64,000 nt of DNA from Myxococcota bacterium (GTDB lineage Bacteria; Myxococcota_A; UBA796; UBA9615; JAKLKC01): positions 62,001 through 126,000 of the forward strand of contig JAKLKC010000001.1 in assembly GCA_023150875.1 (NCBI GenBank), given 5' to 3'. Both the position numbers and the translations under genes were made by a program. How positions within the stretch are numbered: position 1 is the first letter of the stretch; each line of letters opens with the position of its first letter. This document shows positions 10,509 to 61,553 of this stretch, piece by piece. Under the pieces are notes generated by a model, which was given only the letters and a program-made list of their open reading frames with translations, ran no database searches and was not told where the DNA came from.

Positions 10509-11092
10509 GGGTCTAGGGGGTGGCCGTGCGGGAGCGGCGCCGCCGGGACGCGGCGAGGAGGAGCAGCGCCGCCGCCGGCGCCCGGCCGGGTCCCCCCGCG
10601 GAGTCGCACCCCTGGCAACCCGATGTCGGCTCGTCCTCGCCGGACGCCGAGTCGTCGTCGTCGGCGGGGTCCGGCGCCCGGAGCTCGGCCACCAGCTCGA
10701 AGCCGCGACGCTCGGGTTCGTCCTCGGCGTCGAGGCCACTGGGACCGAGGTTGGCGACCCCTACCAGCACCCGCTCGGCCCCCTCCAGGTCGACCTCCAC
10801 CGCCACGGCCTCCCCCGAGGGGCCCCGGGCGGAAGCGAGCCGGGCCGGTCCGTCCCCCAGGAGCGCGGCGGCGACCACGCCCCACCTCGCCCCCTGATCG
10901 CCGGTGGCGGCGAGCCGAAGGGTGCCGGTGGCGCCGTTCCCGGGGGCGATCTCCCAGTAGCTCGCGCCCAGGTCGTATGGAGGTTCCGAGGGGGTCATGG
11001 GGGAGGCGACGGCCTCGTCCAGGGTGGGCTCCCCCTCCAGTAAGACCCGGGCCCGGTCCGGCCAGAGGCCGCCTTCCTCGAAGTGGGCGCCG
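10509..11092 (-). repeat. Direct repeat copy 1 (about 585 bp), matching 14525-15109
   Basis: This stretch matches 14525-15109 in the same orientation with about 23 differences by hand count, so roughly 96% identity. Similarity begins just outside the stop codon and ends abruptly at 11092, where the sequence changes from metalloprotease-like coding DNA to unrelated DNA. The two copies bracket the three-gene cassette at 11419-14218. Confidence 0.9.
10513..11092 (-). pseudogene. Truncated 3' copy of the metalloprotease-like gene at 14518-16041
   Basis: Encodes only the last 190 or so residues of the neighbouring protein, from GAHFEEGGLWPDRAR through the Cys motif and Arg-rich tail. The HExxH catalytic half is missing. 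The frame is still open, and upstream sequence reads on in frame to about 11328, but those extra residues resemble nothing in the intact gene and have no convincing ribosome-binding site. A one-base difference near the end gives an earlier stop than in the intact gene. I treat it as a remnant of duplication or cassette insertion; expression of a short secreted tail cannot be excluded. Confidence 0.8.
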
Positions 11093-14517: not shown

Positions 14518-16041
14518 CTACGGGGGGTCTAGGGGGGTGGCCGTGCGGGAGCGGCGCCGCCGGGACGCGGCGAGGAGGAGCAGCGCCGCCGCCGGGGCCC
14601 GACCGGGCCCCCCCGAGGAGTCGCACCCCTGGCAACCCGATGTCGGCTCGTCCTCGCCGGACGCCGAGTCGTCGTCGCCGGCGGGGTCCGGCGCCCGGAG
14701 CTCGGCCACCAGCTCGAAGCCGCGACGCTCGGGCTCGTCCTCGGCGTCGAGGCCACTGGGACCGAGGTTGGCGACCCCCACCAGCACCCGCTCGGCACCC
14801 TCCAGGTCGACCTCCACCGTCACGGACTCCCCGGAGAGGCCCCGGGCGGAGGCGAGCCGGGCCGGGCCGTCCCCCAGGAGCGCGGCGGCGACCACGCCCC
14901 ACCTCGCCCCCTGATCGCCGGTGGCGGCGAGCCGGAGGGTGCCGGTGGCGCCCTCGCCGGGGGCGATCTCCCAGTAGCTCGCGCCCAGGTCGTAGGGGGG
15001 TTCCGAGGGGGTCATGGGGGAGGCGACGGCCTCGTCCAAGGTGGGCTCCCCCTCCAGGAAGACCCGGGCCCGGTCCGGCCAGAGGCCGCCTTCCTCGAAG
15101 TGGGCGCCGTCGTCCCGGCTGGACACGAACATCCTCCAGGAGGCGAACTCCAGGTACACGTCCCCGAAGTCCCCCTCCGGGGCGAACAGCACCTCCGCGG
15201 CGTCGAGGAAGTCGGGGTCGTCGGTGGGGTGGGCGTCGGCCAGGGCCAGCCAGAGGTCCCGGAGGGTGGTGCCGTCCCACAGGCCGTAGCGCTGCTCCAG
15301 GAAGTGGGAGAAGATGCAGCCTCCATATTCATAGTAGGAGTAGGGCGCGTGGTCCGCGACGGCGTCCTGGTAGCTGTCGTGGAGTATCGAGGCGAAGGGG
15401 AGCGAGTTGAAGTCGGCGATGTCGTAGTAGTAGTAGTCCTTCTCGTCGACGACCACGTCCTCCATCCCCTGGGCGGTGGATTCCCACACGAACACGCGGT
15501 ACTCCCAGCCGTCGATGCCGTACTGGAGGACGTGGTTGAACTCGTGGGCGACGTACACCGGCATGTCCGACGCCGTCAGGGACTCGTCCAGCGCGACGTA
15601 GGCGGGCAGGCTGAAGAGGTCGTCGCTCGGATCGGCGTCTCCCCCGGTCCCCCAGGTGTAGGCCCCGCCGTAGGTCTGCTCGTTGGTCAGGTAGAAGTCG
15701 ATGCGGTCGTCCCCGCCCAGGGGCTCGTCCCCCGGGGGCTGGGGCCAGCCCATCTCCTCCACCTGGACCCTCCAGGCGTGCTCGGCGTCCTCGAGGATGG
15801 CGGGGCCGCGGTCCGCGTCGGAGTCCCTCCGCCAGTGCACCCGCAGCGGGTAGATCGCGGAGTCGATGGAGCCGACGCTGGTGGGGCGGAAGGCGGCTCC
15901 CCGGGGGACGCCGGAGTGGGGGATCTCGCCCCTCTCCTCCAGCAGGATCCGCGGCGTATGGCACCGGACGCCCGCCCGAGCGGAAGGGGCCGCGCCCAGG
16001 GCGACCGCGGCGGCGCAGAGGGAGAGGGAGAGACGGGTCAT
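14518..16041 (-). CDS. Secreted MXAN_6640-like putative metalloprotease with C-terminal sorting tail
   Basis: 507 residues with a Sec signal peptide (ARA cleavage). The zinc motif is His166-Glu167-Phe-Asn-His170 (VAHEFNHVLQYG), followed by WESTAQGMED, where the Glu would be the third ligand as in myxobacterial proteins annotated as the MXAN_6640 family. A beta-rich C-terminal domain follows. The tail is a MYXO-CTERM-like tripartite signal: a CQGC motif, a short Ala/Leu hydrophobic run, then an Arg cluster. The ATG at 16041 has a GAGGAG site. Its last 0.58 kb is duplicated at 10509-11092 beyond the inserted cassette. Confidence 0.83.
   Translation of the reverse strand: MTRLSLSLCAAAVALGAAPSARAGVRCHTPRILLEERGEIPHSGVPRGAAFRPTSVGSIDSAIYPLRVHWRRDSDADRGPAILEDAEHAWRVQVEEMGWPQPPGDEPLGGDDRIDFYLTNEQTYGGAYTWGTGGDADPSDDLFSLPAYVALDESLTASDMPVYVAHEFNHVLQYGIDGWEYRVFVWESTAQGMEDVVVDEKDYYYYDIADFNSLPFASILHDSYQDAVADHAPYSYYEYGGCIFSHFLEQRYGLWDGTTLRDLWLALADAHPTDDPDFLDAAEVLFAPEGDFGDVYLEFASWRMFVSSRDDGAHFEEGGLWPDRARVFLEGEPTLDEAVASPMTPSEPPYDLGASYWEIAPGEGATGTLRLAATGDQGARWGVVAAALLGDGPARLASARGLSGESVTVEVDLEGAERVLVGVANLGPSGLDAEDEPERRGFELVAELRAPDPAGDDDSASGEDEPTSGCQGCDSSGGPGRAPAAALLLLAASRRRRSRTATPLDPP
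14525..15109 (-). repeat. Direct repeat copy 2 (parent copy), matching 10509-11092
   Basis: The 3' end of the intact metalloprotease-like gene. See the partner copy at 10509-11092. The distance between repeat starts is about 4.0 kb. Confidence 0.9.
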
Positions 16042-29098: not shown

Positions 29099-29110
29099 CA
29101 GGGGATCGGG

Positions 29111-29284
29111 CATGCCTATCCGGATGCCACCCAGGGCGGTTCGTGACGACCGCCAGCCGTCGTGAATGGCTCGCCGTCCTTGGCTCGCCCACAGAGGCAC
29201 AGAGCGGCCCGTCCGGGGCCCACAGAGAACACAGAGGGAGGAGCGGGGAGGCCCGGAGCTTTGGGCGGCAAACGGATAGGCAGT
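29111..29284 (+). mobile_element. MITE-like element, copy A (174 bp, non-coding)
   Basis: Ends are inverted repeats: the left end reads CATGCCTATCCG and the reverse complement of the right end reads ACTGCCTATCCG. The pairing extends about 20 bases inward with few mismatches. The element is flanked by an exact 8-bp direct repeat, GGATCGGG (29103-29110 and 29285-29292), as left by transposition. A second copy of identical length lies inverted at 60814-60987. Inside are several CAGAG-containing units. It encodes no transposase and has no convincing coding frame, so it must be moved in trans. Confidence 0.85.
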
Positions 29285-29320
29285 GGATCGGGGACCGCCC
29301 CCCTTCCGAGGGGCCCTCCC

Positions 29321-30595: not shown

Positions 30596-30650
30596 GGCGA
30601 CGGACCGGGTGGGCGGTGGGGGGCGGAGGAACGGAAGCCCTCCCGCGGGA

Positions 30651-33482
30651 TCAGGGAGGAGGCGCGTTCGCCTCGTCGTCCCAGGCCCCCGTGCCCGCGG
30701 CGACGCACTCGGGGTCCTCGGCGTCGATCAGGGCGTCGCCGTCGTTGTCCGCGCCATCGTTGCACTGTGCCGTGCCGGGGCCCACCTCGTCGGCGGCGGC
30801 GTCTACGCAGTCGGGGTCGGCGGCGTCGATCCAGCCGTCCCCGTCCTCGTCCGTCCCGTCGTTGCAGCCCGTGGTGCCGGGGCCCACCTCGTCGGCGGCG
30901 GCGTCCACGCAGTCGGGGTCGGCGTCGTCGGTCCACCCGTCCCCGTCGTTGTCGAGCCCGTCCTCGCACCCTCCCGGCGGAGCGTCTCCCTCGCCGCCGT
31001 CGGCCTCCACGCACTCGGGGTCCAGGGCGTCGATGGACCCATCGAGGTCGTTGTCCAGCCCGTCGTTGCACTCGGCGGTGCCGGGGCCCACCTCGTCGTC
31101 GCCGGCCTCCGTGCAGTCCGGATCCGCGGCATCGGTCCAGCCGTCCCCGTCCTCGTCGGCTCCGTCGTTGCATCCGGTGGTGCCGAGCCCCACCTCCCGG
31201 CTCTCGGCGTCGACGCAGTCCGGATCGTCCCCGTCGGTCCAGCCGTCGCCGTCCCCGTCCACGTGGTCGGAGCAGTTGTTGGAGTCCTCGTCGTCGTCCA
31301 GGCCGTCGTCGCAGCCCCGGTCGTCCTCGTCCACCTCGCCGTCGGCGTCGTTGTCCACGCCGTCGTTGCAGTCGTAGGCCGCGTTGGTGCCGCCCTCGGA
31401 CTCCAGCAGCGCGTCGTAGACCAGCTCGCCCGTCGCGTCGTCCACCCGGTAGCAGCCGGGGTCCTTCTCGTCCCTCCAGCCGTCGGCGTCGTCGTCGACG
31501 CCGTTGTTGCACTGCGTAATCCCCTCGAACATCCCGTCACCGAGCCCACAGCCGGGATCCGCGCCGTCCACGAGCCCGTCGCCGTCGTTGTCCACCGCGT
31601 CGTGGCAGTTGTCGGTGTTCGAGAAGATCGTCACGTCGAGGGTCTTCACGTCCACCACCATGTTGCCGAGCGCCGTCATGGGGATCTTCTGCACCCGGTG
31701 GTGGTTGATGTACAGGTAGGCGCTGTACCGGGTGGAGACGTACTCGTCGTCGGCGACGGTGGAACCGAACGGGAACATGGAGGGCGGCGCCTTGGCCAGC
31801 TCCCGTGCGGGGATGCAGAGCCCCCCGGAGCGGTGCCAGGCGAAGGCGGTCAGGCGGAAGACCTCGAAGGTCCCGAAGAAGTTGAACGGCATCATGTCGT
31901 CCCACACCCGGAAGTCCACGGTGTAGTAGTCGTTCTTCGACATCTTCCGCTCGCCCTCTTCGGTGTCCCAGCGCACCAGCAGCCCCGGACAGGTGCTGGG
32001 GGTCTCGGGATCGAAGGCGTCCCAGTCCACCTCCACGTCCTTGAGCTCGTCGAGGGTCCCCACGCCGATGTGAACGGCTCCGATGGTGGAGGCGAGGTTG
32101 CCCCCGTCGGGCAGCAGCGTGAGGTTGTTGACGCTGCCGATGTCCATGGGGGGGATGGTGATGGCCCCGGCGGCGTTGATGTCCTCGATCTTCTCCAGGC
32201 CCTGGGCGCACTCGGCCCCATAGTCTCCGGCCTCGAAGTTCACGCCGTAGGAGTAGGAGGCACCCCAGGACATGCACATCGGCTTGTCGAAGGGCGCGTT
32301 GTTGGGGCCGAGGAAGTCGTTGGTGTAGTACCGGATGTCGCCGTCCCAGCGCATGTCGATGCCATTCTGGCCGGGAAGGGTCACGCTCTCGGCCCCCGAA
32401 GAGAGCTCCAGGGCGGTGAAGGTCTCGTAGTCGAGGCAGTTCCCCTCCTCCAGGGGCCCGGAGGGCTGGTTGTTGAACCCCAGCTCCCTCTGGTCCTCGC
32501 AGACCTGGGCGAAGTAGCTGCCCCCCGGGAGTCCCATGACGGGCTCCTTGAAGTAGAGGGTCACCTTCCCGACGTCGCCGCCCCCGCCCTCGATCCCCTC
32601 CAGGGCGAAGAAGCAGTATCCGTCCACCTGGGTGGCGTCGGGGGTGTTGTCCCCGTCCGTGTCCACGTCCACGGGGTCGCAGTCCGCCCCGGGCGCCGCC
32701 ACCTGGAGCTGGAGCACTCCGGCGTCGGTCCCGATGGGGTCCTGCACGTTGTGCCTGTTCCGGTAGAAGCGGATGAGGTCGCCGGCCTGGACCCGGTTGA
32801 CGTCGGGGGGCGCGAAGGCCCGAGGGGGGATCTGGGCCCGGATCCCCGTCGTCGAGGCGACGCTGTCCGGGTTGCCTCCCCAGAAGGTCGCCCCCCGCGG
32901 GGACGGCTGGCTGTTCAGGAAGCCGTAGCCGCCGACGAAGGGCACGCCGCCGAAGAGGGTGCTGTCGTAGTACTGGAGGCTGAACGACCCGATCTCGTCA
33001 TCGAAGAGGCTGGCGTACTCCACCGCGGTGTTTTCGCTGCCGGGGATCCGGCTGGAGACCCGGTAGTCGTACCCGTCGTCCAGGCTCGCCACGCCGTGCT
33101 CGCAGCCGACCCGCACGTCGACCTTCCCGGTCTGGATCGGACCCGGCGGGGAGATCACCGTGATGACGTCGTCCCGGAGCTCCACCGAGGTGTCGCAGAA
33201 GTCCCGGAGGGCGTCGAGGTTGGCGTCCGTCACCACCGTGGCGTTGCGGTTCCCGAACACCACGGACGGCCGCTGGCACTGGCTCGGGTCGTCGACCTCG
33301 ATCCGGACCACGTTGCATCCGGTGATCCCGTCCTCGAAGGCGGGCGTCATCGAGACGATCTCGGGGGGATCGCCCGAGTAGTACGGCTCGGCCTCGCCGC
33401 AGCCCGCGAACGCGAGCCCGGCGGCCAGCGCCACCCGGCCGAGGCGGCGGGTGGGACGTCCCGGGGGGGAGGGATGTCGCAT
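30651..33482 (-). CDS. Large lipoprotein with nine Cys-bracketed calcium-binding repeats
   Basis: 943 residues, lipid-anchored through a FAGC lipobox. The N-terminal 600 or so residues form a beta-rich region with many Cys and no family I recognise. From about residue 626 to the end run nine acidic repeats near the pattern CNDGxDNDxDGxxDxxDPxC, related to thrombospondin type-3 calcium loops. Three of the later ones lie in near-identical 34-residue units. Such repeats are common in myxobacterial surface proteins and are thought to be calcium-stiffened stalks. The ATG at 33482 has GGGAG upstream. It is the last gene of the four-gene surface operon beginning at 40377. Confidence 0.82.
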   Translation of the reverse strand: MRHPSPPGRPTRRLGRVALAAGLAFAGCGEAEPYYSGDPPEIVSMTPAFEDGITGCNVVRIEVDDPSQCQRPSVVFGNRNATVVTDANLDALRDFCDTSVELRDDVITVISPPGPIQTGKVDVRVGCEHGVASLDDGYDYRVSSRIPGSENTAVEYASLFDDEIGSFSLQYYDSTLFGGVPFVGGYGFLNSQPSPRGATFWGGNPDSVASTTGIRAQIPPRAFAPPDVNRVQAGDLIRFYRNRHNVQDPIGTDAGVLQLQVAAPGADCDPVDVDTDGDNTPDATQVDGYCFFALEGIEGGGGDVGKVTLYFKEPVMGLPGGSYFAQVCEDQRELGFNNQPSGPLEEGNCLDYETFTALELSSGAESVTLPGQNGIDMRWDGDIRYYTNDFLGPNNAPFDKPMCMSWGASYSYGVNFEAGDYGAECAQGLEKIEDINAAGAITIPPMDIGSVNNLTLLPDGGNLASTIGAVHIGVGTLDELKDVEVDWDAFDPETPSTCPGLLVRWDTEEGERKMSKNDYYTVDFRVWDDMMPFNFFGTFEVFRLTAFAWHRSGGLCIPARELAKAPPSMFPFGSTVADDEYVSTRYSAYLYINHHRVQKIPMTALGNMVVDVKTLDVTIFSNTDNCHDAVDNDGDGLVDGADPGCGLGDGMFEGITQCNNGVDDDADGWRDEKDPGCYRVDDATGELVYDALLESEGGTNAAYDCNDGVDNDADGEVDEDDRGCDDGLDDDEDSNNCSDHVDGDGDGWTDGDDPDCVDAESREVGLGTTGCNDGADEDGDGWTDAADPDCTEAGDDEVGPGTAECNDGLDNDLDGSIDALDPECVEADGGEGDAPPGGCEDGLDNDGDGWTDDADPDCVDAAADEVGPGTTGCNDGTDEDGDGWIDAADPDCVDAAADEVGPGTAQCNDGADNDGDALIDAEDPECVAAGTGAWDDEANAPPP
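30705..31607 (-). repeat. Coding tandem repeats (calcium-loop units)
   Basis: DNA encoding the nine acidic repeats. In the part nearest 30705-31210 the units recur at about 102 bp (34 residues) with high identity, for example the CVDAAADEVGPGT block twice in succession, which implies recent tandem expansion. This region is prone to length change and to misassembly from short reads. Confidence 0.75.
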
Positions 33483-58908: not shown

Positions 58909-60669
58909 TCAGCGCCGCCGTCGGCCCGCCGTCCAACCCAGCAGCAGGAGGGCGAGGCCCGCCCGGGCCGCCGCTCCGCCCGCGGCGGCGTGGGAGCAGC
59001 CCCCTTCGCACCCCTCCTCGCCGCAGCCGGAGTCACCGCCACACCCGGCGTCACCGCCGCAGCCGGCGTCGCAGCCCTCTCCCCCGCACGCCCCGGCGAG
59101 GTCGATCTCCAGGGGGACGGCGGCGGTCGCGTCGAGACCGGCGTAAGCGACGAGCCAGTCCCCTTCCCCCTCGGCGGCGAAGCGGAGGTCGGCGACGGCG
59201 ATGCCCTGGAAGCCGGGCACGCTGAAGGACCCGAGGAGGTCGTCCCCCAGGAGCGCGCCGACCGCCGCGTCGAGCATGGTGGGGACGACGGCCGCGAGGG
59301 CCTCGACGTCGTCCGGGAAGGGCTCGGCGTAGACCACCTCCGCCGCCACGGAGCCCACGTCGACGGCCACCACCGGGGTGATGGCGCCGCCGGTGAGGTC
59401 GACGTCGAGCTGGGCGGGGATCGCGGGCAGTTCCAGGCCGAAGGCGCGGGCCATGCGGGCCTGGCTCATCACCAGGATGTCCAGGGCCACCCCCTCCAAC
59501 TGGAGCGTCACCAGGGGATCCCCCGAGAACGTCGCCCGGGGCGGGGCGAGCACCGCCACGTCCGCCCGGACCGGGGCGTCGTCCCCGTCGGCGAAGTCCA
59601 GCAGCGGTGGGAAGAGCAGCCCCAGGAGGCCGGCGGGGGCGGCGTCGTCCAGGCCGAGGCACAGGGCCCCGGACCGCCAGGCGGCGAGGAGGAGCTGGTC
59701 CACGAGGTCGTTCGGGACCATCAGCGCCGCGGCGTAGGGAGCGCCGGCCCCGTCGGTCGCCGAGAAGGCGGGGGGAGGCCCCGCGGCGGCACCGACGTCC
59801 ACGGGCACGTCCTCGGGCAGGCAGGACGCGGGGACCTCCACGGCGATGGATCCGCCGAGGGTCAGCTCCAGCCCCTCGGCCTCGGTGATGGCGAGGGCGG
59901 AAGGGGCGAGGCGCACCGAGAGGGGGCTCTCGGCGCCCAGGTCGAGGGACGTGTCCATGACCAGCGACGCGAAGGCGCCCTCCACCGCGTCGGCGACCGC
60001 GTCCGGGAGGCCGCCGAGGGCCTCGTCCAGGAAGGGGCCCAGGAGGACCTCCTGCAACGGGACGTCGAAGAGCTCCTCAGCCTCCAGCAGGTACCCGAGG
60101 AGGCAGGCGTCGGGATCGAGGGGGTTGGGGATGGGCAGGAAGTCCACGGCCACGGTCGCGCCCCCCTCGGGCACGACCACGGCGGAGGTCGTGGGGTCCA
60201 GGGCGAGGGCGAGGCCCAGGTCCACGCGGAGGGGGGCGGGATCGAGGGCGAAGGGGCACGCGTCGCTCCCCAGGGGGAGCAGGCAGGTCCCGGAGACGTC
60301 GAGGCTCCCCCCCGCCCCCGACAGGGTGAGGGCGAGGGTGACGTCCAGGCGGCCTTCCCCGGGGGCGATGGAGACCTCGTCCACCGCGACGTCCACGACG
60401 ATCCCCGCCAGGGCGTAGGTCAGGGGAGGATCCCCCTCCACGCAGACCGCCTCCCCGGCGATCCCGTCCAGCGGCAGCGATGTGGGCACCAGGGCGGCGA
60501 CGGCCTCGGCCAGGTCGGCAAAGCCCCCCGGCGGCACCCTGAGCACCGCCGCGCGCTCCAGGTCCAGGGGCAGCCCGATCCCCCCCTCGGCGCGGGCGAT
60601 GCCCCCATCGGCCCCCACCGCCGCCACCCCCACCAGGACCGCCCACCCGCACCGCCACCCGAAGGACAT
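58909..60669 (-). CDS. Secreted protein with Cys-rich MYXO-CTERM-like tail
   Basis: 586 residues with a Sec signal peptide (ARA cleavage near 29). The mature protein is a long acidic beta-rich chain with strand patterns like V(D/A)VxLxxx and several Cys pairs; I recognise no named domain. The C-terminus is unusual: repeated GCGGDxGCG units with about ten Cys in 30 residues, then a hydrophobic Ala/Leu helix and a final RRRR. It looks like an expanded MYXO-CTERM sorting signal. The ATG at 60669 has GGAG upstream. MITE copy B lies about 145 bases upstream, in its promoter region. Confidence 0.75.
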   Translation of the reverse strand: MSFGWRCGWAVLVGVAAVGADGGIARAEGGIGLPLDLERAAVLRVPPGGFADLAEAVAALVPTSLPLDGIAGEAVCVEGDPPLTYALAGIVVDVAVDEVSIAPGEGRLDVTLALTLSGAGGSLDVSGTCLLPLGSDACPFALDPAPLRVDLGLALALDPTTSAVVVPEGGATVAVDFLPIPNPLDPDACLLGYLLEAEELFDVPLQEVLLGPFLDEALGGLPDAVADAVEGAFASLVMDTSLDLGAESPLSVRLAPSALAITEAEGLELTLGGSIAVEVPASCLPEDVPVDVGAAAGPPPAFSATDGAGAPYAAALMVPNDLVDQLLLAAWRSGALCLGLDDAAPAGLLGLLFPPLLDFADGDDAPVRADVAVLAPPRATFSGDPLVTLQLEGVALDILVMSQARMARAFGLELPAIPAQLDVDLTGGAITPVVAVDVGSVAAEVVYAEPFPDDVEALAAVVPTMLDAAVGALLGDDLLGSFSVPGFQGIAVADLRFAAEGEGDWLVAYAGLDATAAVPLEIDLAGACGGEGCDAGCGGDAGCGGDSGCGEEGCEGGCSHAAAGGAAARAGLALLLLGWTAGRRRR

Positions 60670-60813
60670 CGCCAACTCCACAGCTCCCCGCGCCAGGGGA
60701 CCACACCCGCCCCCAGGGAGCAAGGGGCGCGCTGTGCCCCGGGGGACCGAAGGGCCGCGGTCCTTCCCCTGCCGTCCAGCCCTCGACGGGGTCCGCATGC
60801 AGGAAGAACGTAG

Positions 60814-60987
60814 CTTGCCTATCCGTTTGCCGGCCAAAGCCCCGGGCCTCCCCGCTCTTTCCTCTGCGTTCTCTGCGGGCCCTGGACGGGCCACTCTGCG
60901 CCTCTGCGGGCGAGCCAAGGACGGCGAGCCATCTACGACCGCTGGCAGCCATTACGAACCGCCCTGGGCGGCGTCCGGATGGGCATG
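60814..60987 (-). mobile_element. MITE-like element, copy B (174 bp, inverted relative to copy A)
   Basis: Same length as copy A (29111-29284), and its reverse complement aligns along its whole length with scattered substitutions. The left end (TGCCTATCCG at 60816-60825) and right end (CGGATGGGCA at 60976-60985) are inverted repeats with one mismatch. It is flanked by GAACGTAG (60806-60813) and GAATGTAG (60988-60995), an 8-bp target duplication with one change. It sits between the secreted protein gene and the pentapeptide-repeat gene and is non-coding. Confidence 0.85.
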
Positions 60988-61016
60988 GAATGTAGAAGTG
61001 TTGGTACGCGACCCCC

Positions 61017-61553
61017 TCAGATGGGGGGCAGTGGCGGCGGGGGATCGGTGGTCCAACGGACGGTGGCCGCCTGGTCCGGGTCCAGGGCGAGGTCGCTGCG
61101 CTGGGACTCGTGGGCGGTGGCGCCCCGCAGGTCCGCGCCGTCGAAGGAGCATCCGCCGAACGCGCAGCCCCGCAGGTCGGCGCCCCGGAGGTCCGCGCCG
61201 TCGAAGGTGCAGCCCTCGAAGGCGCTCCGCCTGAGGTCGACGTCCCGGAGCACCGCCCGGGAGAAGTCGCACTCGTCGAAGGTGGACTCGACGAGGGCGG
61301 CGCCGCTGAGGTCGCTGTCCTGAAACGCCGTCACGTCGACCTGGCAGCGGACGACCAGCCAGCCGGGCATGGAGAGGCCGGAGAGGTTCCGGTCGTGGAC
61401 CTCGGCGCGCCGGATGGCCATGCGGTCATCGGCGGGAGGCGGGCGGCTCAGGTCGCGGCGCCCGGCGGGGGGAGCGGGGGTGTCGCCCTGGACGAGGTCG
61501 AAGGCCTGGAGCATGCCCCACGAGCTGGCGAAGTCGAGTCGGCGCACGAACAT
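61017..61553 (-). CDS. Pentapeptide-repeat protein
   Basis: 178 residues. About residues 75-145 consist of pentapeptide repeats with central Leu/Phe (DLSGAAL, CDFSRAV, VDLRRSAF, ADLRGADL, CSFDGADLRGA), which fold as a right-handed square beta-helix. No signal peptide is present, so it is cytoplasmic. Some members mimic DNA and protect gyrase, but the array here is short and mixed, and nothing points to that role. The ATG at 61553 follows a strong GGAGG. Confidence 0.85.
   Translation of the reverse strand: MFVRRLDFASSWGMLQAFDLVQGDTPAPPAGRRDLSRPPPADDRMAIRRAEVHDRNLSGLSMPGWLVVRCQVDVTAFQDSDLSGAALVESTFDECDFSRAVLRDVDLRRSAFEGCTFDGADLRGADLRGCAFGGCSFDGADLRGATAHESQRSDLALDPDQAATVRWTTDPPPPLPPI

Follow-up and report, generated by a model that had tools for sequence, protein, structure and literature searches.

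ISAcr1, an element of the IS1595 family found in Acidiphilium and Acidithiobacillus, is 1080 bp long, encodes a transposase and carries CTTGCCTATCCGGTTG at both ends, exactly abutting its 8-bp target duplications. These duplications agree at 8 of 8 positions in four of five copies (GTTCAAAC, GAACGTTC, GCTGATTC and ATATATTG). A Sphingopyxis insertion sequence that is 69% identical to ISAcr1 and ends in CGTGCCTATCCGGTT shows the same in-register likeness to the ends described below and likewise makes 8-bp duplications. Among bacterial miniature elements, the BrickBuilt MITE of Porphyromonas gingivalis is intergenic and has inverted-repeat ends and short internal repeats, which are 23-bp tandem repeats (PMC4596501). 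Short internal words also recall the loci of GxxExxY genes (TIGR04256, PF13366), where purine-rich words (CACAGAG, CGCAAAG, CACGGAG and others) form direct arrays that are often inverted and placed on both sides of the gene.

Here, we analysed a 174-bp element, copy B, within a window of 64,000 nucleotides from a Myxococcota bacterium, and its relatives in the whole genome. The element shares with ISAcr1 the terminal repeat C[AT]TGCCTATCCGGTTG in register, the 8-bp duplications and similar-looking target octamers, whereas it contains no transposase gene and no recognisable similarity to the ISAcr1 interior. It resembles BrickBuilt in general build, but its internal units are 7 bp long and number four, grouped in two pairs, its ends are ISAcr1-like and its target duplication is 8 bp. 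Compared with GxxExxY loci, its four units lie in one orientation inside a transposon, and the gene is absent. Copy B is very probably a non-autonomous transposable element (MITE) with ends of the ISAcr1 type, IS1595 family.

The preliminary description of copy B was accurate in its geometry: the length is exactly 174 bp, the element is inverted relative to copy A (88% identity), its flanking octamers agree at 7 of 8 positions, and the gene of a predicted secreted protein begins 145 bp downstream of it (minus strand, position 60669, a start set by eye as the ATG ahead of a signal-peptide-like stretch). On its other side, copy B lies just downstream of a pentapeptide-repeat gene, also on the minus strand, which ends at 61017. 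Both window copies are intergenic, and each has its own target duplication, with 8 of 8 positions identical for copy A; the independent insertions already proposed are confirmed. The features are listed in Table 1.

Table 1. Coordinates of the two MITE copies in the window and of the IS4-family insertion sequence elsewhere in the genome
Feature	Coordinates	Strand	Remark
MITE copy B (family 1), 174 bp	60814..60987	-	full element
Target duplication GAACGTAG, 8 bp, of copy B	60806..60813	.
Target duplication GAATGTAG, 8 bp, of copy B (7/8)	60988..60995	.
Copy B terminal inverted repeat, L end (CATGCCCATCCGGACGCCGCCC)	60966..60987	-	ISAcr1-like end
Copy B terminal inverted repeat, R end (CTTGCCTATCCGTTTGCCGGCC)	60814..60835	+	first 12 bases = ISAcr1 end
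Copy B array unit 1/4, CGCAGAG	60902..60908	-
Copy B array unit 2/4, CGCAGAG	60894..60900	-
Copy B array unit 3/4, CGCAGAG	60871..60877	-
Copy B array unit 4/4, CGCAGAG	60862..60868	-
MITE copy A (family 1), CACAGAG array type, 174 bp	29111..29284	+
Target duplication GGATCGGG of copy A, left	29103..29110	.
Target duplication GGATCGGG of copy A, right	29285..29292	.
Single IS4-family insertion sequence, ends CTCATAGGTAGG	L184 1209-2645 (contig C178)

Across the whole genome (6.92 Mb, 180 contigs), 40 near-full-length copies of this family, family 1, were scored among 149 first-look candidates, and thus copy B is not a chance match. Three contigs (~745 kb) were read almost completely; they hold 11 full copies, all of which were already within the 40, so a genome total of about 40 full copies plus fragments is a fair one. 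The 37 aligned copies have a mean pairwise identity of 85%, and the best pair reaches 98.3%, indicating that some copies moved fairly recently. At least three MITE families occur in the genome, sharing their terminal repeat but differing in their interiors: family 1, whose interior has conserved blocks; family 2 and the like (L034-L037, L041, L043, L047, L099, L102 and L106), whose interior includes inverted CGTGCCCGAGCCC arrays; and family 3 (L038, L040 and L048). The terminal inverted repeats are imperfect and about 20 bp long. Short size (174 bp), the lack of an internal transposase gene and the high copy number are among the features that define MITEs; the mobile element is apparently an undescribed repeat family of this known kind.

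Several lines of evidence demonstrate transposition. When flanks were compared over exactly 8 bp in 44 full copies of the three families, their identity was 77.6%, against 35.5 +/- 2.4% in a control with flanks paired at random, and agreement over 6, 7, 9 or 10 bp was near the control. Duplications of at least 7/8 were found in 34 of the 44 copies, with 1.9 expected, which bears out the 8-bp duplication first noted at copy B. The target sites show a weak preference, T.GWW..WWC.A. Moreover, locus L012 reads CGTAGTTTCAAC-MITE-GTTTCAGCATCCTGCAGGCC and locus L031 reads CGTAGTTTCAACATTCTGCAGGCC, a matching empty site that is paralogous, within the same genome, rather than orthologous. On contigs C95 and C152, family 1 stands beside family 2 and one octamer occurs three times; the relative orientation of the two elements differs between the contigs, and these double insertions are therefore separate events. 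On contig C142, a family 3 element, an ACGAAA hairpin and a family 1 element form a chain bounded by CTTCGCTC and CTTCGTTC, suggesting that such chains can move as a unit. With some 40 copies, terminal repeats, 8-bp duplications and no transposase gene inside, the original reading of copy B as MITE-like stands, and we regard it as a genuine but ordinary MITE.

The mobile element itself is of a known kind, and its unexpected part is the concerted array. The interior of family 1 holds four C[G/A]CAGAG units in one orientation, arranged as two pairs spaced at 8 and 9 bases. At the second position of the unit, 21 copies have A in all four units, 12 have G in all readable units and 4 are mixed. Only four of the 175 alignment columns separate the two array types perfectly, and each of them is the homologous position of one unit. 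Since these four columns also served to define the groups, what matters is that none of the remaining columns follows them. When 630 column pairs are ranked by linkage, all six pairs among these columns are within the first seven. The four units switch between G and A in concert, and because the fixed differences all lie at the homologous base of the unit, a non-independent origin is called for.

One explanation is that the array is a functional module, with a single protein, possibly a GxxExxY-type nuclease, reading every unit; the word would then have to change in all units together. The column linkage favours this idea, as does the best tree built without the array columns, in which the G label changes six times (6-8 in bootstrap trees) and a single G clade is rejected by the AU test only at p 0.04; GxxExxY genes are, furthermore, flanked by short-word arrays in many genomes. 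However, two array haplotypes might have been spread among copies by recombination, which would produce equally tight linkage, support for the tree is weak and its well-supported (starred) branches are by themselves compatible with a single origin of the G label, and the GxxExxY genes of this genome carry a different word, ACGAAA. We consider the functional module rather unlikely; it is compatible with the MITE reading and would add to it. At another family 1 copy, in locus L033 (contig C6), the segment at ~593-1141 has inverted CGCAGAG-type arrays at its two sides and appears to have been inserted; its right array merges into that of the MITE, and the GTTTCAAC duplication on the outside is retained.

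That arrays accompany GxxExxY genes was a lead tested on loci in other genomes of the phylum. In one set, inverted-array flanks exceeded the 99th percentile of shifted controls at 9 of 21 GxxExxY loci, and in another 5 of 16 loci lay above the control maximum of 15; a one-sided periodicity score alone did not separate GxxExxY loci from controls. Across the phylum, these PD-(D/E)XK genes often lie between inverted arrays of purine-rich words of 8-10 nt, the word being specific to the locus (L031, L060, L073, L066, L168, L173, L176 and others). A repeat-word search of the open literature returned no description of such arrays, and GxxExxY is scarcely mentioned there by name. This genome contains one intact GxxExxY gene, which lies between inverted ACGAAA-word arrays, and two truncated ones directly followed by family 1 copies; hairpin-only derivatives of the ACGAAA arrays adjoin MITEs. 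Beside the intact gene, a nucleotidyltransferase and HEPN-like gene pair (L031, 610-1244) resembles, by eye, an MNT/HEPN toxin-antitoxin system. More speculatively, and with a somewhat lower likelihood than the functional module, short-word arrays might be an exchangeable, putative recognition module common to transposons and GxxExxY nuclease elements, with one word per element that differs between elements; a switch would affect every unit simultaneously, since all units would be read by the same cognate protein, possibly GxxExxY.

We next consider which transposase moved these MITEs. The family 2 end CATGCCTATCCGGTTGCCACCC matches the ISAcr1 ends in register at 17 of 20 bases, and the copy B ends CTTGCCTATCCGTTTGCC and CATGCCCATCCGGACGCC do so at 13-16 of 20, below the family 2 end; the terminal repeat of these MITEs is also written CATGCCTATCCGG / CATGCCTATCCGGTTGCC. 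Once ISAcr1-type ends are set aside, other 20-mers of the surveyed insertion sequence loci reach at most 14 of 20. Searching 7.3 Gb of plasmids with the terminal repeat gave five matching records, four of them at ISAcr1 termini. More distant IS1595 members do not have these ends in common, and several yielded no convincing ends. The preliminary description had proposed IS66, ISL3 or IS256 as movers, though with ends that did not obviously match any of them, a view now superseded by the in-register ISAcr1 ends with their 8-bp duplications. Mobilisation by another family of this sort is highly improbable: IS66, ISL3, IS256 and IS6 also generate 8-bp duplications, but the terminal repeat matches ISAcr1 termini in register, which account for four of the five plasmid records, and the MITE ends appear to lack the starts typical of IS66 (GTAA) and ISL3 (GGC). 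Three other candidates were set aside: the IS4-family element on contig C178, which has the sole DDE_Tnp_1 transposase of the genome and the ends given in Table 1; a likeness of the terminal repeat to IS231 (IS4 family), which found no confirmation in papers and was overtaken by the ISAcr1 match; and GxxExxY itself, whose locus lacks the terminal repeat.

A profile search assigned the ISAcr1 protein to PF12762/PF12760, a positive control for the model, and returned no PF12762 match in this assembly; nor was a long element with these terminal repeats found in the genome. Hence we infer the mover from the ends alone, and the family is orphaned, cross-mobilised or separated from a partner that was not assembled. 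An autonomous partner in the same genome is not a defining feature of a MITE. We propose that all three MITE families were moved by an IS1595-type DDE transposase, absent from the assembly, that recognised their terminal repeats. Copy B would have landed in the gap between two same-strand genes, its interior, including the four CGCAGAG units, being carried as putative cargo.

The terminal repeat was found in no other of 377 genomes of the phylum and in no viral contig, and the whole element in no plasmid or phage. Among 58 relatives, family 1 was represented by just fragments shorter than 40 bases, in two of them. A scan of GTDB with the terminal repeat gave one exact match, in Thiorhodococcus mannitoliphagus, and a second near-match in the same organism; no autonomous element was recognised at either.

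An RNA role for the element had also been suggested, with folding and compensatory changes as the proposed check. Single-sequence folding gave z-scores of -0.29 and 0.13, no excess over expectation, and folding of the 37-copy alignment gave an energy of -32.9 versus -28.7 +/- 4.6 after column shuffling; the covariation term was unfavourable and no compensatory changes were seen; Rfam returned no match. That the element is a structured non-coding RNA or regulatory repeat under selection instead of a mobile element has next to no chance of being correct, since its intergenic location at both window loci and its conserved interior blocks are outweighed by these results, by the precise 8-bp duplications and the empty site, which show transposition; nor were conserved orthologous positions seen. 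A scan for terminators and for promoters, the latter covering sigma-70-like sites, found neither in the element; copy B may nevertheless affect the downstream secreted-protein gene.

Two further repeats were observed in the window. A 300-base direct repeat (10516-10815 and 14533-14832; 97% identical, 4 kb apart) suggests a recent duplication, and six tandem 102-base repeats in a probable coding region (30601-31355) perhaps encode Asp-rich repeats of a calcium-binding surface protein.

Taken together, a repeat family of a poorly known bacterium has been given a definite mover type, IS1595, from its ends alone. The concerted array, with its likeness to the arrays at GxxExxY loci, provides a testable lead on a little-studied nuclease family.
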